64,000 nucleotides of DNA. Source: Psychrobium sp. MM17-31 (GTDB lineage: Bacteria > Pseudomonadota > Gammaproteobacteria > Enterobacterales > Psychrobiaceae). Below the pieces are notes generated by a model. That model saw only the letters and a program-made list of their open reading frames with translations. It was not told the DNA's origin and did no database searches. Made by a program: the position numbers and the translations under genes. The stretch lies in the NCBI RefSeq assembly GCF_022347785.1, contig NZ_JAKRGA010000001.1:310001-374000 (forward strand), written 5' to 3'. Shown here in pieces: positions 5,510 to 45,312 of this stretch; the first letter of the stretch is position 1, and every line of letters starts with the position of its first letter.

Positions 5510-8500
5510 ATGAGCCGTCAATCTAGTACTAACACAAAGAGTCATTTAAAAAGTCAGTTACAAGAGATACTTCAAGATCGCATTATGATCTTAGACGGCG
5601 CTATGGGTACCATGATTCAAGCGCATGATTTTAATGAAGAAGACTTTCGCGGCGAACGCTTTAAAGATTGGCCCTGTGCGATCAAAGGCAACAATGACCT
5701 ATTATCGATAACTCAAAGCGAAGCGATTAAAGACATTCACCGTCAATATTTCGCGGCTGGCGCTGACATCGTTGAAACCAACACCTTTAACGCCACCACT
5801 ATTGCGATGGCGGATTATGAGATGGAATCTATTTCGCGTGAAATCAATTATGTTTCCGCGAAAATAGCCCGTGAAGTGGCGGATGAATTTGCGATTAGCG
5901 AGCCTGAGAAACCGCGTTTTGTGGCAGGTGTACTTGGCCCAACCAACCGTACTTGTAGTATTTCGCCGGATGTCAATGACCCCGGCTTTCGTAACATTAC
6001 CTTCAATCAGCTAGTTGAGGCCTATCGCGAATCAGCGCTTGCACTAATTGAAGGCGGCAGTGACATTTTGATGGTAGAAACCATCTTCGACACGCTAAAC
6101 GCCAAGGCCTGTTTGTTTGCCATTGAAAGCGTGTTTGACGACATTGGTTTTAAATTGCCAGTGATGATTTCTGGCACCATTACCGATGCCTCAGGCCGTA
6201 CCCTCACCGGACAAACGACCGAAGCATTCTACAACTCACTACGTCACGTTGAACCAATCTCGATTGGCCTTAACTGTGCCCTTGGCCCAGCGGAATTACG
6301 CCAATATGTAGAAGAATTATCACGTATCAGTGAATTTCCAGTAAGTGCCCATCCCAATGCTGGCCTGCCGAACGAATTTGGCGGCTATGATCTCGATGCT
6401 ATTGAAATGGCGGGCTACATTAACGAATGGGCGCAAAGCGGCTTTTTAAATATCGTTGGTGGTTGTTGTGGTACCACGCCATTGCACATTCAAAAAATCA
6501 GTGAAGCATTAAACAGCACCGCGCCGCGTCAGCTGCCAGAAGTCAATGTAGCTTGTCGCCTGTCAGGGCTTGAGCCATATAATATCTTTGAAGATTCGCT
6601 TTATACCAACGTGGGTGAACGTACTAACGTTACTGGCTCGGCGCGCTTTTTACGTCTTATTAAAGAAGAAGATTACACCACGGCATTAGAAGTAGCGCTA
6701 CACCAAGTAGAAGCTGGAGCGCAAATCATCGATATCAACATGGATGAAGGCATGCTCGATGCCAAAGCAGCCATGACGCGCTTCTTAAACCTCATTGCCT
6801 CAGAGCCTGAGATTTCTCGCGTACCTATTATGATTGATTCGTCTAAATGGGACGTTATCGAAGCCGGCCTGCAATGCGTGCAAGGTAAATGCGTAGTGAA
6901 CTCGATTTCTCTTAAAGAAGGCGAAGAAGAGTTTATTAAACAAGCCACGCTTATTAAGCGTTACGGCGCAGCCACAATCGTGATGGCGTTTGATGAAGAC
7001 GGCCAAGCCGATACTTATGAGCGCAAAGTAGAAATTTGTCAGCGCGCTTATGACGTACTGACCCAAAAAGTAGACTTCCCACCAGAAGACATTATTTTCG
7101 ATCCTAATATTTTCGCGATTGCCACTGGTATCGAAGAGCACAATAATTATGCGGTAGACTTTATTGAGGCTACCCGTTTTATACGCGAAAACTTGCCTCA
7201 CGCGGGTGTGTCAGGCGGTGTGTCTAACGTCTCATTCTCTTTCCGTGGCAATAATCCAGTGCGTGAAGCCATCCACGGCGTATTTTTATATCACGCCATT
7301 AAAGCTGGCATGAACATGGGGATTGTAAATGCCGCGCAACTGGCAATTTACGATGATATCCCAGCCGATTTAAAAGACGCGGTGGAATATGCAGTGCTTA
7401 ATCACGGCGAAGATGCCACCGAGAAACTGCTCGAAGTCGCCGAAGAATATCGCAACGCGGGCAGCAAATCGAAAACCCATGTTCAAGATTTATCGTGGCG
7501 CGAACTGCCAGTTAACGAGCGACTAGCCCACTCGTTAGTTAAAGGCATTACAGAATATATCGACGAAGATACCGAAGCGGCGCGCGTGATGTTCGACAAA
7601 CCGATTGAGGTTATCGAAGGGCCATTAATGGATGGCATGAACATCGTTGGCGACCTTTTTGGCTCTGGCAAAATGTTCTTACCGCAAGTAGTAAAATCAG
7701 CCCGTGTAATGAAACAAGCGGTGGCCTACCTCAACCCATTTATCGAGGCAGAAAAAACACCCGGCCAATCCAACGGCAAAGTGGTGATGGCAACCGTTAA
7801 AGGTGATGTGCACGACATCGGCAAAAATATCGTTGGCATCGTATTGCAATGTAACGGCTACGAAGTGTTTGATTTAGGGGTGATGGTAAGCGTTGAAGAC
7901 ATTATTAAATGCGTTAAAGAAAACGATGCTGACGTTATCGGCTTATCAGGCCTGATCACGCCATCGCTGGATGAAATGGTGCACAACGTAAAAGCCTTTA
8001 CTCGTGAAGGCATTGATGTGCCAGTACTGATTGGCGGTGCGACCTGTTCGAAAATTCACACCGCCGTGAAAATTGCGCCTCACTATGAATACGGCGCACT
8101 TTATGTGGCGGATGCCTCACGCAGCGTACCAATTGTAACGCGTTTAATTAGCGATAAAACGCGCAAAGCCTGCATTGATGAGCATTATCAAGAATACGAT
8201 GTAATGCGTGAAAAACGTCTCGCGCAAGGGAATCGCAAAACACTTGTGAGCATCGAACAAGCGCGTGAGAATCGCTGCACTTTTGATTATGAAAACAATC
8301 CACCAGCTAAACCTAATGTACTTGGCAAACAGGTATTTGACGATTATCCATTAGAGAATTTACTCGATCGCATTGACTGGACACCGTTTTTCCGCTCGTG
8401 GGAGCTACACGGTAAATTCCCGAAAATTCTAGAGGATAAAGTTGTTGGTGAAGAAGCCACTAAACTCTTTGCCGATGCACAGGAAATGCTTAAAAAGATC

Positions 8501-9229
8501 GTCGATGAGAAATGGTTAACAGCACGCGGTGTAATTGGCTTATACCCTGCTAATAGCGTTAATTACGACGATATCGAAATTTACAGTGATGAGTCACGCT
8601 CAGAAGTTTTAATGACTACCCATCACTTGCGTCAGCAATTAGAGCGTGTAGGTGGCAATCACAACTATGCCCTTTCCGATTTTGTTGCCCCGAAAGATTC
8701 CGGTGTGCCTGATTACATGGGTGGCTTTGCGGTCACCGCAGGTATTGGTATCGACGAGCACGTTGAACGCTTTGAGGCCGCCAACGATGATTACAGTGCT
8801 ATTATGCTTAAATCCCTTGCAGATCGCCTCGCCGAAGCCTTTGCAGAGCACATGCATGAGCGCGTACGTAAAGAGTTCTGGGGCTATGCCAGCGATGAAA
8901 CGCTCGATAACGAAGCGCTTATCAAGGAGAAGTACAAAGGTATTCGCCCTGCGCCGGGTTATCCCGCCTGTCCAGATCACACTGAAAAAGCGCTGTTGTG
9001 GGAGTTATTAACGCCAGATCAAGATATCGACCTTAATATCACCGAAAGCTTTGCCATGTTCCCAACAGCAGCTGTATCGGGTTGGTACTTTGCTCACCCA
9101 GAATCACGTTACTTTGGAGTTAGCGATATTAAAAAAGATCAGGTAGAAGATTACGCCAAACGCAAAGGCATGAGTTTGCAAGAAGCTGAACGTTGGTTAG
9201 CGCCTAATCTGAGTTACGATCCAGAGTAA
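5510..9229 (+). CDS. metH: Cobalamin-dependent methionine synthase MetH
   Basis: A 1239-residue full-length MetH (E. coli 1227) that transfers the methyl group of 5-methyltetrahydrofolate to homocysteine through methylcobalamin in the cytoplasm. Domains in order: homocysteine-binding with zinc ligands Cys256, Cys319 and Cys320; pterin-binding from about 360 (GERTNVTGS); B12 cap near 655-745; cobalamin-binding with DVHDIGKN, the lower ligand being His768; and the AdoMet reactivation domain from about 910, with [12 protein letters not shown]. All key residues are present and offset by +9 from E. coli. It is monocistronic, preceded by three MetJ boxes and followed by a strong hairpin, so repression by methionine/AdoMet is expected. 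Confidence 0.98.
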
Positions 9230-9232
9230 TCG

Positions 9233-9260
9233 ATATTCCCCCTAAGTGAAGGGGGAATAT
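9233..9260 (+). terminator. metH terminator hairpin
   Basis: A perfect 10-bp stem ATATTCCCCC/GGGGGAATAT with an 8-nt loop begins 3 bases after the metH stop. It is followed by a short AT-rich run (AAATTTATTT), so the U-tract is weak but the stem is strong. Confidence 0.7.
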
Positions 9261-9305: not shown

Positions 9306-9555
9306 TTTGGTGTGCTAAAAAATTATTCGATTAATTTGAATTTTGTGCGAGCACACCAGTTACTTTTCTTTGCGTCGCCAAAGAAAAGTAACCAAAAGAA
9401 AGGCGACCCGTAAATTTCGCGTTGATTCTTAAATAATTAATTGCCTTATCAATACCGTATTTGATCCGCATCCATGCGGCAAATACTCAAAAATCATCCC
9501 TGATTTTTGCATTGGGCAATTTCTGATTTAAGACGCGAAATGACGGGACTTAGCC
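9306..9555. repeat. Dispersed hairpin-rich repeat, long copy 1
   Basis: This element fills most of the 417-base gap between metH and the TauE-like gene; there is no ORF in it. Modules in order: TGGTGTGCT/AGCACACCA arms (9308-9316, 9350-9358); a perfect 14-bp hairpin GTTACTTTTCTTTG with CGTCGC loop (9359-9392); a large closing stem ATTTCGCGT/ACGCGAAAT (9414-9422, 9533-9541); and within it the small hairpins CCGCAT-CC-ATGCGG and AAAAATCA-TCCC-TGATTTTT. A second long copy is at 42917-43170, and the first module recurs at 25098-25149. The element looks like a REP/MITE-type repeat. Its origin and function are unknown. Confidence 0.8.
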
Positions 9556-9646
9556 GCGCTTCATCTCTAGCGAAAATATGAACAGCTCAGTATTACATAA
9601 TCAACGGCGTTTTTACTTCTTTTAACCATTAACCATAGATAACATC

Positions 9647-10471
9647 ATGCTTGAATTTATCACCAGTAATTTATCAACCCTGTTCGCGCTAGTCGCCACT
9701 GGCATATTCGCGGGCATTCTAGCGGGCCTACTTGGCGTTGGCGGCGGCATCGTAATAGTGCCCGTATTATTCTTTTTGTTTCAAAGCTTTGGCGTATCGC
9801 CAGAGTCAGCCATGGTCATTGCTACTGCAACATCACTAGCGACAATTATTCCCACCTCAATTAGCTCAATACGCGCTCACAAGAGCAAAGGCAATGTCGA
9901 TGTTGAGCTCTTAAAACGTTGGGGCGTATTTATCTTTATCGGCGTGTTGGCGGGAAGTTATCTGGTGACTCGTGTTGATGGCACTTACCTCACAGCACTA
10001 TTTGGCACAATCGCGAGTTTATCGGCGCTTAATATGCTATTTCGCACTGGTAAATCCGCGCTATTTGAGCGTCTGCCAAATGCTGCAGGTCAAGGGGTAA
10101 TGGCAAGTGGCACAGGTTTTTTCAGCGCCATGGTCGGCATTGGCGGCGGCACTATTTCGGTGCCACTGTTAACAGTATTTAACTACCCTGCCCATAAAGC
10201 TGTTGGCACTGCTGCTGCGATTGGTTTACTGATTTCATTGCCCGGCGCAGCAACGATGTTGCTACTAGGTGAAACTCCGGCCGATGCGCCTGCTGGCACC
10301 TTTGGTCTGGTCAATATTGTCGGTTTCGCCTGTATTGTGCCGCTTACCGTGTTATTTGCTCCTGTTGGCGCGGCACTGGCGGCAAAGCTCGATGCCAATA
10401 AGCTTAAAAAGATTTTTGCTGTAGTGTTACTTATCACTGGCGCGCGTATGTTGGCGCAATTGATTTTATAG
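9647..10471 (+). CDS. TauE/SafE family anion exporter
   Basis: A 274-residue integral membrane protein with about eight hydrophobic segments and the two internal glycine-rich repeats typical of TauE/SafE: GLLGVGGGIVIVPVLFFL near residue 28 and AMVGIGGGTISVPLLTVF near residue 163. The family includes proteins linked to export of sulfite, sulfoacetate and other small sulfonates or organic anions. Lying between metH and the mesXD pair, a role in sulfur metabolism is tempting, but it is on the opposite strand to mesXD and has its own terminator. Substrate unassigned. Confidence 0.85.
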   Translation: MLEFITSNLSTLFALVATGIFAGILAGLLGVGGGIVIVPVLFFLFQSFGVSPESAMVIATATSLATIIPTSISSIRAHKSKGNVDVELLKRWGVFIFIGVLAGSYLVTRVDGTYLTALFGTIASLSALNMLFRTGKSALFERLPNAAGQGVMASGTGFFSAMVGIGGGTISVPLLTVFNYPAHKAVGTAAAIGLLISLPGAATMLLLGETPADAPAGTFGLVNIVGFACIVPLTVLFAPVGAALAAKLDANKLKKIFAVVLLITGARMLAQLIL

Positions 10472-42234: not shown

Positions 42235-42855
42235 ATGAATCGCGTTTTAGACAATAATTCAAAACTAGTGCTTACCCTATTAGCTATCATCGCCTTACCG
42301 AAGCATGTCGCAGCCAGTGATGAAGTCTATAAATATCGCCGCGCCGATGGCAGCGTGGTATTTAGCGATATCAAACCTAAAGTCAATAATTTTCAAACCC
42401 TAAAGTTCGATTGTTATGCCTGTAATACTAGCTCGTTAGTCAACTGGCAAAAAATACCGCTATCGCAAAAATACCAGATGCAAGTCAAAAACGCCGCGAA
42501 GAAATACGGCGTAGATTCGGCGTTAATTCGCGCAGTAATCCATGCCGAATCAGCCTTTAAACCCAATGCTATTTCCAAAGTTGGCGCGCAAGGATTGATG
42601 CAGCTGATGCCGGAAACGGCAAGTTACTTAGGGGTTAAAAATCCATTCGATGTGACCCAAAACATCAATGGCGGTGCTCACTATCTACAGAAGATGCTCA
42701 AACAATTTAAAGGAGATATTAGCCTTGCCACAGCCGCCTATAATGCAGGGCCGACTGCGGTAAAAAAATATAAAGGCATTCCACCCTACAAAGAAACCAA
42801 GGCCTATGTTGAGCGAGTGGCGATTTTGTATAAGCGTTATCAGACAGGAATATAA
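42235..42855 (+). CDS. Lytic transglycosylase (Slt-type) with DUF4124-like head
   Basis: A 206-residue protein. A signal peptide precedes about residue 28 (HVAASDE), a DUF4124-like strand region has VYKYRRADGSVVFSDIKP, and an SLT domain follows from about residue 85. Catalytic Glu105 is in IHAESAFKPNAISKVGAQG, and GLMQLMP and AYNAGPTAV are the later SLT motifs. It cleaves peptidoglycan glycan strands in the periplasm. Two Cys in DCYAC could form a disulfide. No operon partner; a repeat element follows it. Confidence 0.88.
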   Translation: MNRVLDNNSKLVLTLLAIIALPKHVAASDEVYKYRRADGSVVFSDIKPKVNNFQTLKFDCYACNTSSLVNWQKIPLSQKYQMQVKNAAKKYGVDSALIRAVIHAESAFKPNAISKVGAQGLMQLMPETASYLGVKNPFDVTQNINGGAHYLQKMLKQFKGDISLATAAYNAGPTAVKKYKGIPPYKETKAYVERVAILYKRYQTGI

Positions 42856-42916: not shown

Positions 42917-43170
42917 TTGGTGTGCTGGTGAAAGTAGGATTGATTAATTGAATTAATCGCTAGCACACCAGTTACTTTTCTTTGCGTCGCCAAAGAAAAG
43001 TAACCAAAAGAAAGGCGACCCGTGATTTAGCGTCTATTCTTAAATGATAAATTGCCTTTTCAATACCGTATTTGATCCGCATCCCTGCGGCAAATACTCA
43101 AAAATCATCCCTGATTTTTGCATTGGTCAATTTCTAATTTAAGACGCTAAATGGCGGGAGCAGACCGCGC
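42917..43170. repeat. Dispersed hairpin-rich repeat, long copy 2
   Basis: The second long copy of the element at 9306-9555 fills most of the 381-base gap between the converging lytic transglycosylase and TonB-receptor genes. The module from AGCACACCA through CAAAGAAAAGTAACC and GGCGACCCGT is identical to copy 1 over about 60 bases. The closing stem here is ATTTAGCGTC (43025-43034) with GACGCTAAAT (43143-43152), changed on both arms relative to copy 1 so that pairing is kept. Inner hairpins CCGCA/TGCGG and AAAAATCA/TGATTTTT are present. Confidence 0.8.
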
Positions 43171-43236
43171 AATAAGCCTATAAAAATCCTCAACTAATCA
43201 GTATTAGTCCTGCGGCTCCCTTTAGTAAATTACGAT

Positions 43237-45312
43237 TTAGAAAGTACCCCAAATCGATAATTTGTACTCAGGCTCGCGGCGGCGGTTTGATACTTCATAG
43301 CCGGTGTATTCACCGCTGCGGTCACCGTCATAAAACTCGCGAGTTCGGGTGTACTTAGCCACGTTCACGCTGTTAACTTCTAACTGGATTTTGTAGTTAT
43401 CAAAATAAGTCGTTTCAACGAATACCAATCCGCGGTTATTACCTTCAAAACGGGCGATTTCATTAACGCGGAACGCCGTATCTTCAAACTCACTCCAGTA
43501 TCTAAAGCCCCACGCAAATTTGTGCTCGACTAAATCCTGACGGAACTTCACATTTACCTCATGTGGCACATCACCACTGGTGTTGCGATAGCGTTTGATG
43601 ATTTTATCGTGAAACTCTGAGTCTTCGTGCTCGTAAGAAATTTCTAGTAAACCGTTGTCTAAGAAGCCATCCGTTGGAATGTTTAGCGAGACATCAACAC
43701 CCCATACTTTTGATTCACCAGCGTTTCCTAAACCAGAACCACCATCTGCTAAAATAATTTCTTCTAGCTCATCGTCGCGCCATGTATGAGAAGCTTTAAC
43801 CTTAAAGCTGCCCTTTTCACTGAAATTCCAGTCATATGAGAAAGATAGCGCCGTATTTTGTTCTGGCTTAAGCTTCGAATTACCCGATGTATTGCGATCA
43901 TCTTCCGCTGAATTACTCGCTGCAAAGTCATTAAAGTTAAGTTGACCAACCGAATGTTCAGCGGTAACCACTAGATTCATATCGTCATTAAGCTTGTAGT
44001 TAGCCGACAAACGCGGTTTCATGAAATCAAAATCTTGTTTGTTTTCATTACCACCGGTAACTTCGATTTGCGAGAACTCTGCGGTTAAGCCACCGTCGAT
44101 AGTTAGCTTATCGCTGTAAGAGTAAACAAAACTAGCAAAAATTTCGGCACGATTTTCCGTCACTTGAATAGTGGCATTTGATAATTCCACCGCTTCGCCA
44201 TTTTCAGTATAGGTTTGATCGGTATCTAAATAGTTACGCGCCACTTCAATACCAAATTCTGGCTTAAACTTATTGCTACCGCTATAACCATAGGTGTTGC
44301 GAATAATGTATTCGCTTTCATAGCGATCACTTTCATAAACGCTCGAATAGGTCTCACTACCATCTTCTTTTTCACTAGCAGCACTGTGATTGTCTCGTTG
44401 CTCAACTTTACCTATCGCTAAGCTATGCCACTTCCAATCATCAAATTTCTGTACCCAATCAACACCAAACTCAGCAGTCTGGAACCGATTGAGTTGATCT
44501 AAAAACCATTGTTTATCAGGTGCGCTACCGTCATAGGCTCGACCATCGTAAATATCGCGAAACTGATCGTTGGTCCATTTGTCGCTACCAAGACGTCCAT
44601 TAAGGGTTAATTTACCCGCATCGAATGCTCGAGAAAGTTGACCATTGGTAAATGAAAAACGACCTAAATTTTCACGCTCTTCATACGCTGAGTCCACCAG
44701 CTTATCATCAGCGTCATATTCGTTGATCACAGCCTTTCGAAAACCAGGGCCAAAACCAATGTCAATATCGGCTACTGCTTCCCACTCACCTAAATTAGTA
44801 TTAACAGCCGCTTCAATATTTGGCTTAGGATCGCCATAAGGCGCACGGCGGAATTTTAACGCCCAAGTGCCAGAGGTAATATCCTTGCGTTTGATAACAT
44901 TGGCCACTATTGATTGGCCTGCAGCATCACCTGCGCCAACACCGCCACGAATGATTTCGATGCGTTCTACCTGTTCAGCAGGAATACGTTTAAGTGCCCC
45001 AACAAGACCGCCAGATTTAGACGTTGGGCGCACGCCATCGATTAATACATTTCCCGCATTACCACCAAAACCACGTGCATTATCACCGCGATCGAAGCTA
45101 AACCCTGGCAAGCGTTCAATCATGTTAAACGCATTTTGTGGCTGATATTGTTTAAAGAATGATGCAGGGTAATTAGAATGGTCTTGAGATACTTGAGTCG
45201 TTACCTTGGCAACTTCAGAGGCTAGCGTGGTCATTGGAAAGGCTAGCGGAAGAACACTCAAACACCCTACAACAAGTAACTTGTTGCTTGAGAATACGGA
45301 AGAATTTGTCAT
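43237..45312 (-). CDS. TonB-dependent outer-membrane receptor
   Basis: A 691-residue protein with a signal peptide (cleavage near TLASE), a plug domain at about 45-150 (NAFNMIERLPGFSFDRGD, NVLIDGVRP, VERIEIIRGG), and a 22-strand-type barrel ending in Phe (IWGTF), as usual for outer-membrane barrels. It imports a ligand using TonB energy; the ligand is unknown, and no siderophore, vitamin or polysaccharide genes are adjacent. No Fur-type operator was recognised upstream. The plug is short and a canonical TonB box is not obvious, which is common in alteromonad receptors. Confidence 0.87.
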   Translation of the reverse strand: MTNSSVFSSNKLLVVGCLSVLPLAFPMTTLASEVAKVTTQVSQDHSNYPASFFKQYQPQNAFNMIERLPGFSFDRGDNARGFGGNAGNVLIDGVRPTSKSGGLVGALKRIPAEQVERIEIIRGGVGAGDAAGQSIVANVIKRKDITSGTWALKFRRAPYGDPKPNIEAAVNTNLGEWEAVADIDIGFGPGFRKAVINEYDADDKLVDSAYEERENLGRFSFTNGQLSRAFDAGKLTLNGRLGSDKWTNDQFRDIYDGRAYDGSAPDKQWFLDQLNRFQTAEFGVDWVQKFDDWKWHSLAIGKVEQRDNHSAASEKEDGSETYSSVYESDRYESEYIIRNTYGYSGSNKFKPEFGIEVARNYLDTDQTYTENGEAVELSNATIQVTENRAEIFASFVYSYSDKLTIDGGLTAEFSQIEVTGGNENKQDFDFMKPRLSANYKLNDDMNLVVTAEHSVGQLNFNDFAASNSAEDDRNTSGNSKLKPEQNTALSFSYDWNFSEKGSFKVKASHTWRDDELEEIILADGGSGLGNAGESKVWGVDVSLNIPTDGFLDNGLLEISYEHEDSEFHDKIIKRYRNTSGDVPHEVNVKFRQDLVEHKFAWGFRYWSEFEDTAFRVNEIARFEGNNRGLVFVETTYFDNYKIQLEVNSVNVAKYTRTREFYDGDRSGEYTGYEVSNRRREPEYKLSIWGTF

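Follow-up and report, generated by a model that had tools for sequence, protein, structure and literature searches.

The window, i.e., the whole 64,000-nucleotide stretch of Psychrobium sp. MM17-31 DNA that we analysed, carries two copies of a long repeat at 9306-9555 (copy 1) and 42917-43170 (copy 2), where an earlier reading made from the letters alone (the sequence-only reading) had placed them. Copy 1 is flanked by plus-strand ORFs at 5510-9229, which we take from its translation to be metH, and at 9647-10471, whose translation is presumably TauE-like. Copy 2 lies between convergent ORFs (42235-42855, plus strand, and 43237-45312, minus strand), and the flanking ORFs bear out the earlier statement that both copies sit at 3′ ends of genes. 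A strong terminator-like hairpin (9233-9260) directly follows the metH stop codon upstream of copy 1; it and the other such hairpin listed near copy 1 (9746-9762) fall outside the element, which itself lacks the G+C-rich hairpin and T run of a Rho-independent terminator at copy 1. The identity described as about 60 bases around a perfect 14-bp hairpin was confirmed, the longest shared run being 62 bases (AGCACACCAGTTAC...GACCCGT, starting at 9350 in copy 1 and 42962 in copy 2) with the hairpin inside it at 9359-9392 and 42971-43004, while identity across the 3′ parts (9414-9595 and 43025-43206) is 82%. The compensatory change in the closing stem is likewise present, ATTTCGCGT/ACGCGAAAT in copy 1 against ATTTAGCGTC/GACGCTAAAT in copy 2. 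Folding of 9306-9560 gave -92.7 kcal/mol, compared with -52.4 ± 4.2 in 200 shuffles (z -9.6), and the minus-strand fold of copy 1 gave z -6.8. The features of the two copies are as follows.

Copy 1, 9308-9316 (TGGTGTGCT) with 9350-9358 (AGCACACCA): hairpin H1, with a sequence-variable loop, from the fold and from pairs 276-283/320-327 of alignment A1.
Copy 1, 9359-9372 (GTTACTTTTCTTTG), loop CGTCGC 9373-9378, and 9379-9392 (CAAAGAAAAGTAAC): stem S1, 99.5% paired over 96 cores, near-complete S1 pairing having been one condition for selecting those cores.
Copy 1, 9394-9401, minus strand: candidate third strand, AAAAGAAA on the plus strand and UUUCUUUU on the minus strand, running parallel to the S1 purine strand AAAGAAAA with T.AT and C.GC triads, from three-strand covariation.
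Copy 1, 9403-9407: candidate pseudoknot strand GCGAC, pairing with loop bases GTCGC (9374-9378), from covariation of the S2 helix.
Copy 1, 9398-9556, minus strand: TwoAYGGAY (RF01731) match over the whole model (1-168), 46.5 bits against a gathering cut-off of 43, E 1.3e-6.
Copy 1, 9407-9547: closing stem, outer part CCCG 9407-9410 with CGGG 9544-9547, inner part ATTTCGCGT 9414-9422 with ACGCGAAAT 9533-9541.
Copy 1, 9466-9479, minus strand: inner hairpin, loop AUGGAU, C-G closed.
Copy 1, 9489-9508, minus strand: inner hairpin, loop AGGGAU, C-G closed.
Copy 2, 42919-42969: hairpin H1, GGTGTGCT 42919-42926 with AGCACACC 42962-42969.
Copy 2, 42971-43004: stem S1, with its loop at 42985-42990.
Copy 2, 43006-43013: candidate third strand, followed by candidate pseudoknot strand GCGAC at 43015-43019.
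Copy 2, 43025-43034 (ATTTAGCGTC) with 43143-43152 (GACGCTAAAT): closing stem, enclosing two inner GGA-loop hairpins.

The covariation that the sequence-only reading had suggested looking for, which we measured by double-change counts against shuffles rather than with R-scape, confirmed a structured dispersed repeat with real compensatory changes. Double changes occurred in 22 of 50 predicted pairs over 27 copies (genus alignment A1, i.e., 27 of 29 candidate copies, L034 and L037 having been left out by us). The A1 candidates exclude truncated copies (L016, L022, L023, L026, L030 and L052) and insertion-bearing ones (L018, L020, L021, L025 and L029); two A1 rows are misaligned in their 5′ part, and the hand count used 25 copies, without L053 and L054. 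By our own sums, A1 holds 72 compensatory cells and 23 one-side cells. Alignment A2, with 96 of 111 listed cores (15 were left out by eye as off-register, short-looped or near-duplicate), held 173 double-change cells compared with 41.5 ± 4.8 in shuffles, and double changes reached 12 of the 14 S1 pairs.

The core runs in the order S1 hairpin, nine-base linker, complement of the hairpin loop. The sequence-only reading had missed that GGCGACCC, which follows the hairpin, is more than a tag: it pairs with the hairpin loop. Loop and complement change together, being GTCGC/GCGAC here, CAGCC/GGCTG in L019, GCAG/CTGC and GCGG/CCGC in Selenomonadales, and TGTG/CACA in Xanthomonas. Over the 96 cores of A2, which by record title come from at least three phyla, this S2 helix held 102 double-change cells compared with 36.6 ± 4.2 in shuffles, a count that none of 500 shuffles reached, and it scored 0.526 where slid versions scored at most 0.129. 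Mean complement over 164 loop/partner combinations, drawn from 173 cores that had been selected on their triplex mirror, with known duplicate loci removed, was 3.94, compared with 2.28 when shuffled and 2.59 in the highest of 200 shuffles. S2 is not universal, all four inner pairs being Watson-Crick in 65 of the 96 cores. A2 was oriented by the purines of the linker, and its triad counts are therefore no independent evidence for a triplex; S2 is independent of that choice.

Linker AAAAGAAA mirrors the S1 purine strand AAAGAAAA. On the minus strand it reads as a pyrimidine loop in parallel orientation to that purine strand, which is the geometry of a Hoogsteen triplex, and together GGCGACCC, the mirror linker and the loop fit a putative triplex pseudoknot. 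Yoon and colleagues reportedly described the third-strand code T.AT, C.GC, T.CG and G.TA in 1992. Our triplex test took 180 of 259 hairpins chosen by S2 alone, blind to the linker and without known duplicate loci, with the register fixed from stem letters only. Ten combinations of core and third strand were non-canonical, and 77 of their 80 triads, the two with G at a T-A inversion among them, fit the pyrimidine code, compared with a shuffle mean of 59.7 and one shuffle in 20,000 as high; the antiparallel reading of these combinations fit only 51 of 80. Of the 180 rows, 139 were canonical with 8/8 triads, six canonical cores had one misfit triad, and six rows had an unrelated third strand, which we take to be the palindrome read from the wrong side. 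An earlier version of the test, in which hairpins were counted in several registers, was unusable (283 of 672 triads in either reading).

Individual variants follow the same pattern. One Selenomonadales genome has three stem types, AAAGAAAA, AAAAGAAA and GAAAGAAA, each with its own mirrored linker (TTTCTTTT, TTTTCTTT and CTTTCTTT, respectively). Elsewhere a AAAGAGAA stem goes with a TTTCTCTT third strand (G139 and G227), AAGAGAAA with TTCTCTTT (L167 and L219), AGAGAAAA with TCTCTTTT (L048) and AAAGGAAA with TTTCCTTT (L282). Two genomes have T-A inversions, at two positions (L203/L234 and L237), and G stands opposite each of them. Opposite a C-G inversion there is U, provided the register is shifted by one (L232), or else C, as in L235 and its relatives, and the latter lies outside the triplex code; eight loci pair AAAGAAAA with CTTCTTTT, giving 7/8 triads. 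Among 20 variant regions, picked from the class-wide core search because most of them differ inside the triplex, L240 and L244 are decayed, changes in L241, L243 and L245 affect one strand only, and the triplex of L247 and L248 is canonical.

The sequence-only reading had missed that TwoAYGGAY, a motif already catalogued, makes up the 3′ half of copy 1 when this is read on the minus strand. Scanning the element against Rfam with permissive settings found RF01731, while a fast scan of the whole window gave none and whole-genome RF01731 scans of G000 gave no match. Copy 1 spans the whole model above cut-off and copy 2 does not score; among 20 other copies in the same genome two scored (42.7 and 41.5 bits, cut-off 43), and 18, copy 2 included, had no RF01731 score at E ≤ 1. 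The match ends inside the linker, at 9398, and both S1 and the loop pairing are thus absent from the model. Directly 3′ of the match on the minus strand lies the core domain, i.e., the 14-bp hairpin, the mirror-symmetric linker and the loop complement. PMC2864571 lists TwoAYGGAY as "probably" RNA and probably not cis-regulatory, with sources in human gut, gammaproteobacteria and Clostridiales; its Rfam type is cis-regulatory.

An order-wide search found TwoAYGGAY in 38 of 148 genomes, above cut-off in 29. We examined one locus per above-cut-off genome (29 loci; 30 were fetched, L308 being judged by eye only), and a hairpin lay within 110 bases of TwoAYGGAY in 21 of the 29. After TwoAYGGAY, S2 was found in 16 loci, the triplex mirror in 17 and both in 13, while 108 control windows further downstream gave 1, 1 and 0; the mirror threshold allows one miss of seven, L279, L286 and L289 are singly weak, and in L301 S2 overlaps its own third strand. 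Eight loci had no hairpin, two of which (L281 and L285) carry the pyrimidine form by eye, and four more (L292, L293, L296 and L297) had a hairpin without the triplex. The 17 mirrors comprise 11 of the pyrimidine type, as here, and 6 of a purine type with the purine strand 5′; in L304, for example, the third strand GGGGAGT precedes CCAGAGGGGCGT. By eye, further copies repeat the purine pattern, and L308 has the purine form with loop pairing GGCCGG/CCGGCC. The two types occupy the same place, so the conserved trait seems to be the triplex knot and not one sequence.

Several observations accompany these loci. Purine-type knots after TwoAYGGAY occur in other families of the order (L286, L294, L300-L302, L304, L308 and L311-L320), and some of their positions change together outside the purine code as we know it (L311 versus L314). 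A short version in L292, L293 and L321 has S2 as AAGAC/GTCTT and a stem of GTGACTTTTG or GTGACTTTGG; a few possible third-strand bases there also seem to co-vary.

The genome that carries the window gave 47 BLAST pieces, many of them the palindrome on the other strand, which resolved to about 28 copies. None of 14 distinct scorable copies (two duplicate rows removed) lies between divergent ORFs, and the neighbouring ORFs show no consistent read-through into the element on the minus strand. These orientation counts come from this genome only, because many spurious ORFs are called in G+C-rich elements (a crude ORF caller gave 67 "inORF" rows for other loci). Nineteen of 58 genomes searched as relatives, this one included, match; the element is present in 7 of 8 other genomes of the genus, and several more distant relatives match in the central core only. 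The 23-base core at up to 3 mismatches was found in 53 of 369 genomes of the class and a reversed control pattern in 17, and part of the 53 is chance (2 of 20 inspected regions, L242 and L246, were chance matches). A scan of named genomes with the hairpin pattern gave at least 120 stretches, and the titles among the matches listed cover five phyla: Xanthomonas, Stenotrophomonas, Lysobacter, Pasteurellaceae, Burkholderia, Methylomonas, Selenomonadales, Clostridia, Desulfobacterales, Desulfuromonadales, Spirochaetia and Mucilaginibacter, several of these carriers being MAGs in which binning errors are possible. The element had been expected to be widespread in gammaproteobacteria; widespread it is, but by record titles its range is wider than that class. 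It had also been expected to be poorly described as a whole, and this holds too.

No match was found in 50,697 phage records, and we thus rejected a phage origin; among viral contigs, 2 stretches contain the exact 23-mer core. Eleven plasmid records match, each longer than 200 kb, and a blastn search of 5,426 E. coli genomes with the 250-base repeat gave no match. The Selenomonadales genome holds about 50 copies (96 matches of the palindromic hairpin). Flanks of copies are unrelated except in one subfamily (L003-L007, L018, L020, L031 and L049, which share flanks by eye). Over 19 copies the flanks paired with their own partner at -19.8 kcal/mol and with others' flanks at -19.4 kcal/mol; flanks thus pair with their own partner no better than with others, and the element does not continue outwards into a longer palindrome. 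A clean empty site was not found among relatives at metH: the core is absent from the downstream DNA in 6 of 6 relatives with the gene end located (289 bases checked in L271, at least 1,081 in the others), and gene order differs there too. Tandem arrays that include flanks occur in L266 and L166 (Selenomonadales), with matches 213 bases apart in L266, and segmental duplication therefore adds to copy number.

Chimeric copies also occur, with junctions at the GGA loops or at the S1 stem. In L018, L020, L025 and L029, from the genome of the window, the half after the inner GCATC loop is replaced by another module (CGGCAACTGCTCCTGCG...), and in L021 a similar hairpin is present as an extra insert; module exchange at GGA loops seems to occur in these copies. 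In a further subfamily (L016, L022, L023, L026, L030 and L052), H1 and the 5′ strand of S1 are missing and the 5′ module is a different one (GTTCCAGACAAATTTGTGCG... with GGACGAGAC), the junction lying near AAAGAAAAGTAACC.

In the major-groove triplex pseudoknots of telomerase RNA and SAM-II, too, a pyrimidine loop runs alongside the purine strand of the neighbouring stem, in parallel orientation. They share this topology, but they are functional RNAs and not dispersed repeats, and the repeat here, unlike them, has purine-type relatives. PIT elements or TM motifs, E. coli BoxC included, are likewise dispersed and multi-copy, with three consecutive same-strand domains able to form a triplex, as described in PMC4666352; in the terms of that account our repeat is class II on the plus strand and class IV on the minus strand. 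Pyrimidine, purine and mirror third domains do lie on one strand here, with 8-nt stems (6-15 nt in that definition), and the third strand matches 8/8 in copies 1 and 2. However, the finder in PMC4666352 uses a loop 1 of 1-6 nt, whereas here it is 8 nt counted from the triplex, and BoxC is described there as G/C-rich with a 3-6 base loop, whereas our repeat is A+T-rich. The BoxC/TM_ECO pattern (CCCTCNCCC N3-6 GGGNGAGGG N3 GGGNGAGGG) is absent from copies 1 and 2, and two MG1655 BoxC copies have, by eye, no TwoAYGGAY-like part. The words pseudoknot and compensat- are absent from the main text of PMC4666352, which recounts that in vivo footprinting of BoxC/PIT did not support a stable triplex. 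When 18 diverse loci were scanned, two small-RNA families, RF02902 (AaHKsRNA22) and RF02421 (Bp1_684), were each placed next to or across the core at a single locus (L075 and L080), covering only a flank or the S1 3′ strand there; we found no text relating them or RF01731 to one another.

The reading we find most probable, though by no means securely so, is that the element is a chromosomal interspersed repeat, about 250 bp long and composed of two linked domains, acting as a DNA triplex lock at gene ends. The evidence for the pairing of S2, for the relation among the three strands and for the tie to TwoAYGGAY is covariation and the control windows, and is not physical. On the minus strand, the 5′ part would be the TwoAYGGAY domain, with a closing stem around two hairpins with ANGGAU loops. 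The 3′ part would be the triplex pseudoknot, in which S2 is formed by the hairpin loop and the strand immediately upstream, and the intervening pyrimidine strand would sit in the S1 major groove, parallel to the purine strand, forming T.AT, C.GC, G.TA and T.CG triads. A strand exposed in replication or repair downstream of genes could fold into this lock, which may stall or recruit replication or repair machinery, and copies would spread via a trans-acting factor. The arrest step rests on the in vitro block of DNA polymerase by PIT elements recounted in PMC4666352; the same account tells of no effect of PIT elements in vivo and of no promoter or terminator activity, and the lack of an in vivo effect counts against the lock mechanism.

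We lean towards an element acting mainly as DNA because pyrimidine and purine types exchange at one position and RNA, according to PMC4666352, cannot form triplexes of the purine motif. That one-side changes are scarce in A1 fits this as well. The chief alternative, which we hold to be possible but clearly less likely than the DNA lock, is a minus-strand small RNA or 3′-UTR module whose 3′ end is protected by a major-groove triple-helix pseudoknot, for which ENE and telomerase-type triplexes are analogues. The pyrimidine code on the minus strand is consistent with such an RNA, as are the "probably" RNA listing of TwoAYGGAY (PMC2864571) and the same-strand placement of the RF02902 and RF02421 models in L075 and L080. 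Support for a small RNA by RT-PCR concerns only the related RF02421, through the positive Burkholderia Bp1_Cand684 on which, by its name, that family is based (PMC3521395). Wobbles divide: G.U exceeded A.C on the minus strand in S1 (14 to 2) and in the genus stems (25 to 10 counted by cells, 16 to 8 by positions), favouring a minus-strand RNA, but S2 points the other way (14 to 24, and 14 to 22 in a second count). Against an RNA also stand the purine-type triplexes after TwoAYGGAY in 6 of 29 genomes, unlikely for RNA, the inconsistent orientation of neighbouring ORFs, and the lack of any minus-strand promoter beyond chance near copy 1 (one promoter-like site versus 2.0 in shuffles).

The remaining explanations fare much worse than the DNA lock. 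If replication switched template from one inverted arm to the other, paired changes could arise even though the structure is not selected, which would account for the few one-side and many double changes; this is very unlikely, because a polymerase cannot copy a mirror-symmetric third strand and yet the third strand follows the stem in the S2-chosen triplex test. Even less credible is a sponge in which ANGGAU hairpin loops titrate CsrA/RsmA. ANGGA(U/C) loops closed by C-G do fit a CsrA site and CsrA is present in the genome of the window, but 9 of 20 genomes that bear the element gave no CsrA match, both tested Mucilaginibacter isolates included (some of the nine are MAGs, where absence is not certain), and CsrA is thus not a general partner of the element. 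Equally improbable is a REP/BIME-like repeat mobilised by a RAYT (TnpA-REP) transposase, even though REP palindromes are likewise intergenic, multi-copy and at gene ends and PF01797 is present in 15 of 20 carriers: PF01797 had no match in the genome of the window, in the Selenomonadales genome with its roughly 50 copies or in three more of the 20. The TnpA-REP (Y1) transposase raised by the sequence-only reading was found neither in this genome nor in the most-hit of 26, so that for this genome the RAYT reading is effectively refuted unless the assembly misses the gene.

Intrastrand triplex repeats are a kind already described (PMC4666352). What appears to be new is an A+T-rich family with a covarying knot, the covariation across three strands, the joining of this family to TwoAYGGAY and the swapping of one triplex type for the other; we found no paper that brings these together, in a search that covered few subscription journals. 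Taken together, and at somewhat better than an even chance in our judgement, these data describe a trans-phylum class of element with a self-locking triplex pseudoknot, in which three strands coevolve and pyrimidine and purine chemistries exchange, and which would unite TwoAYGGAY, AaHKsRNA22, Bp1_684 and PIT-type repeats. Coevolution of the three strands, with inversions met by a matching third base, is evidence that selection or spread depends on the triplex itself. If so, this would be, to our knowledge, the first evolutionary evidence of selection on an intramolecular triplex in bacterial chromosomes. It would explain the catalogued orphan motif TwoAYGGAY as half of a larger element, and it offers a defined 50-nt core whose natural variants are open to direct tests.
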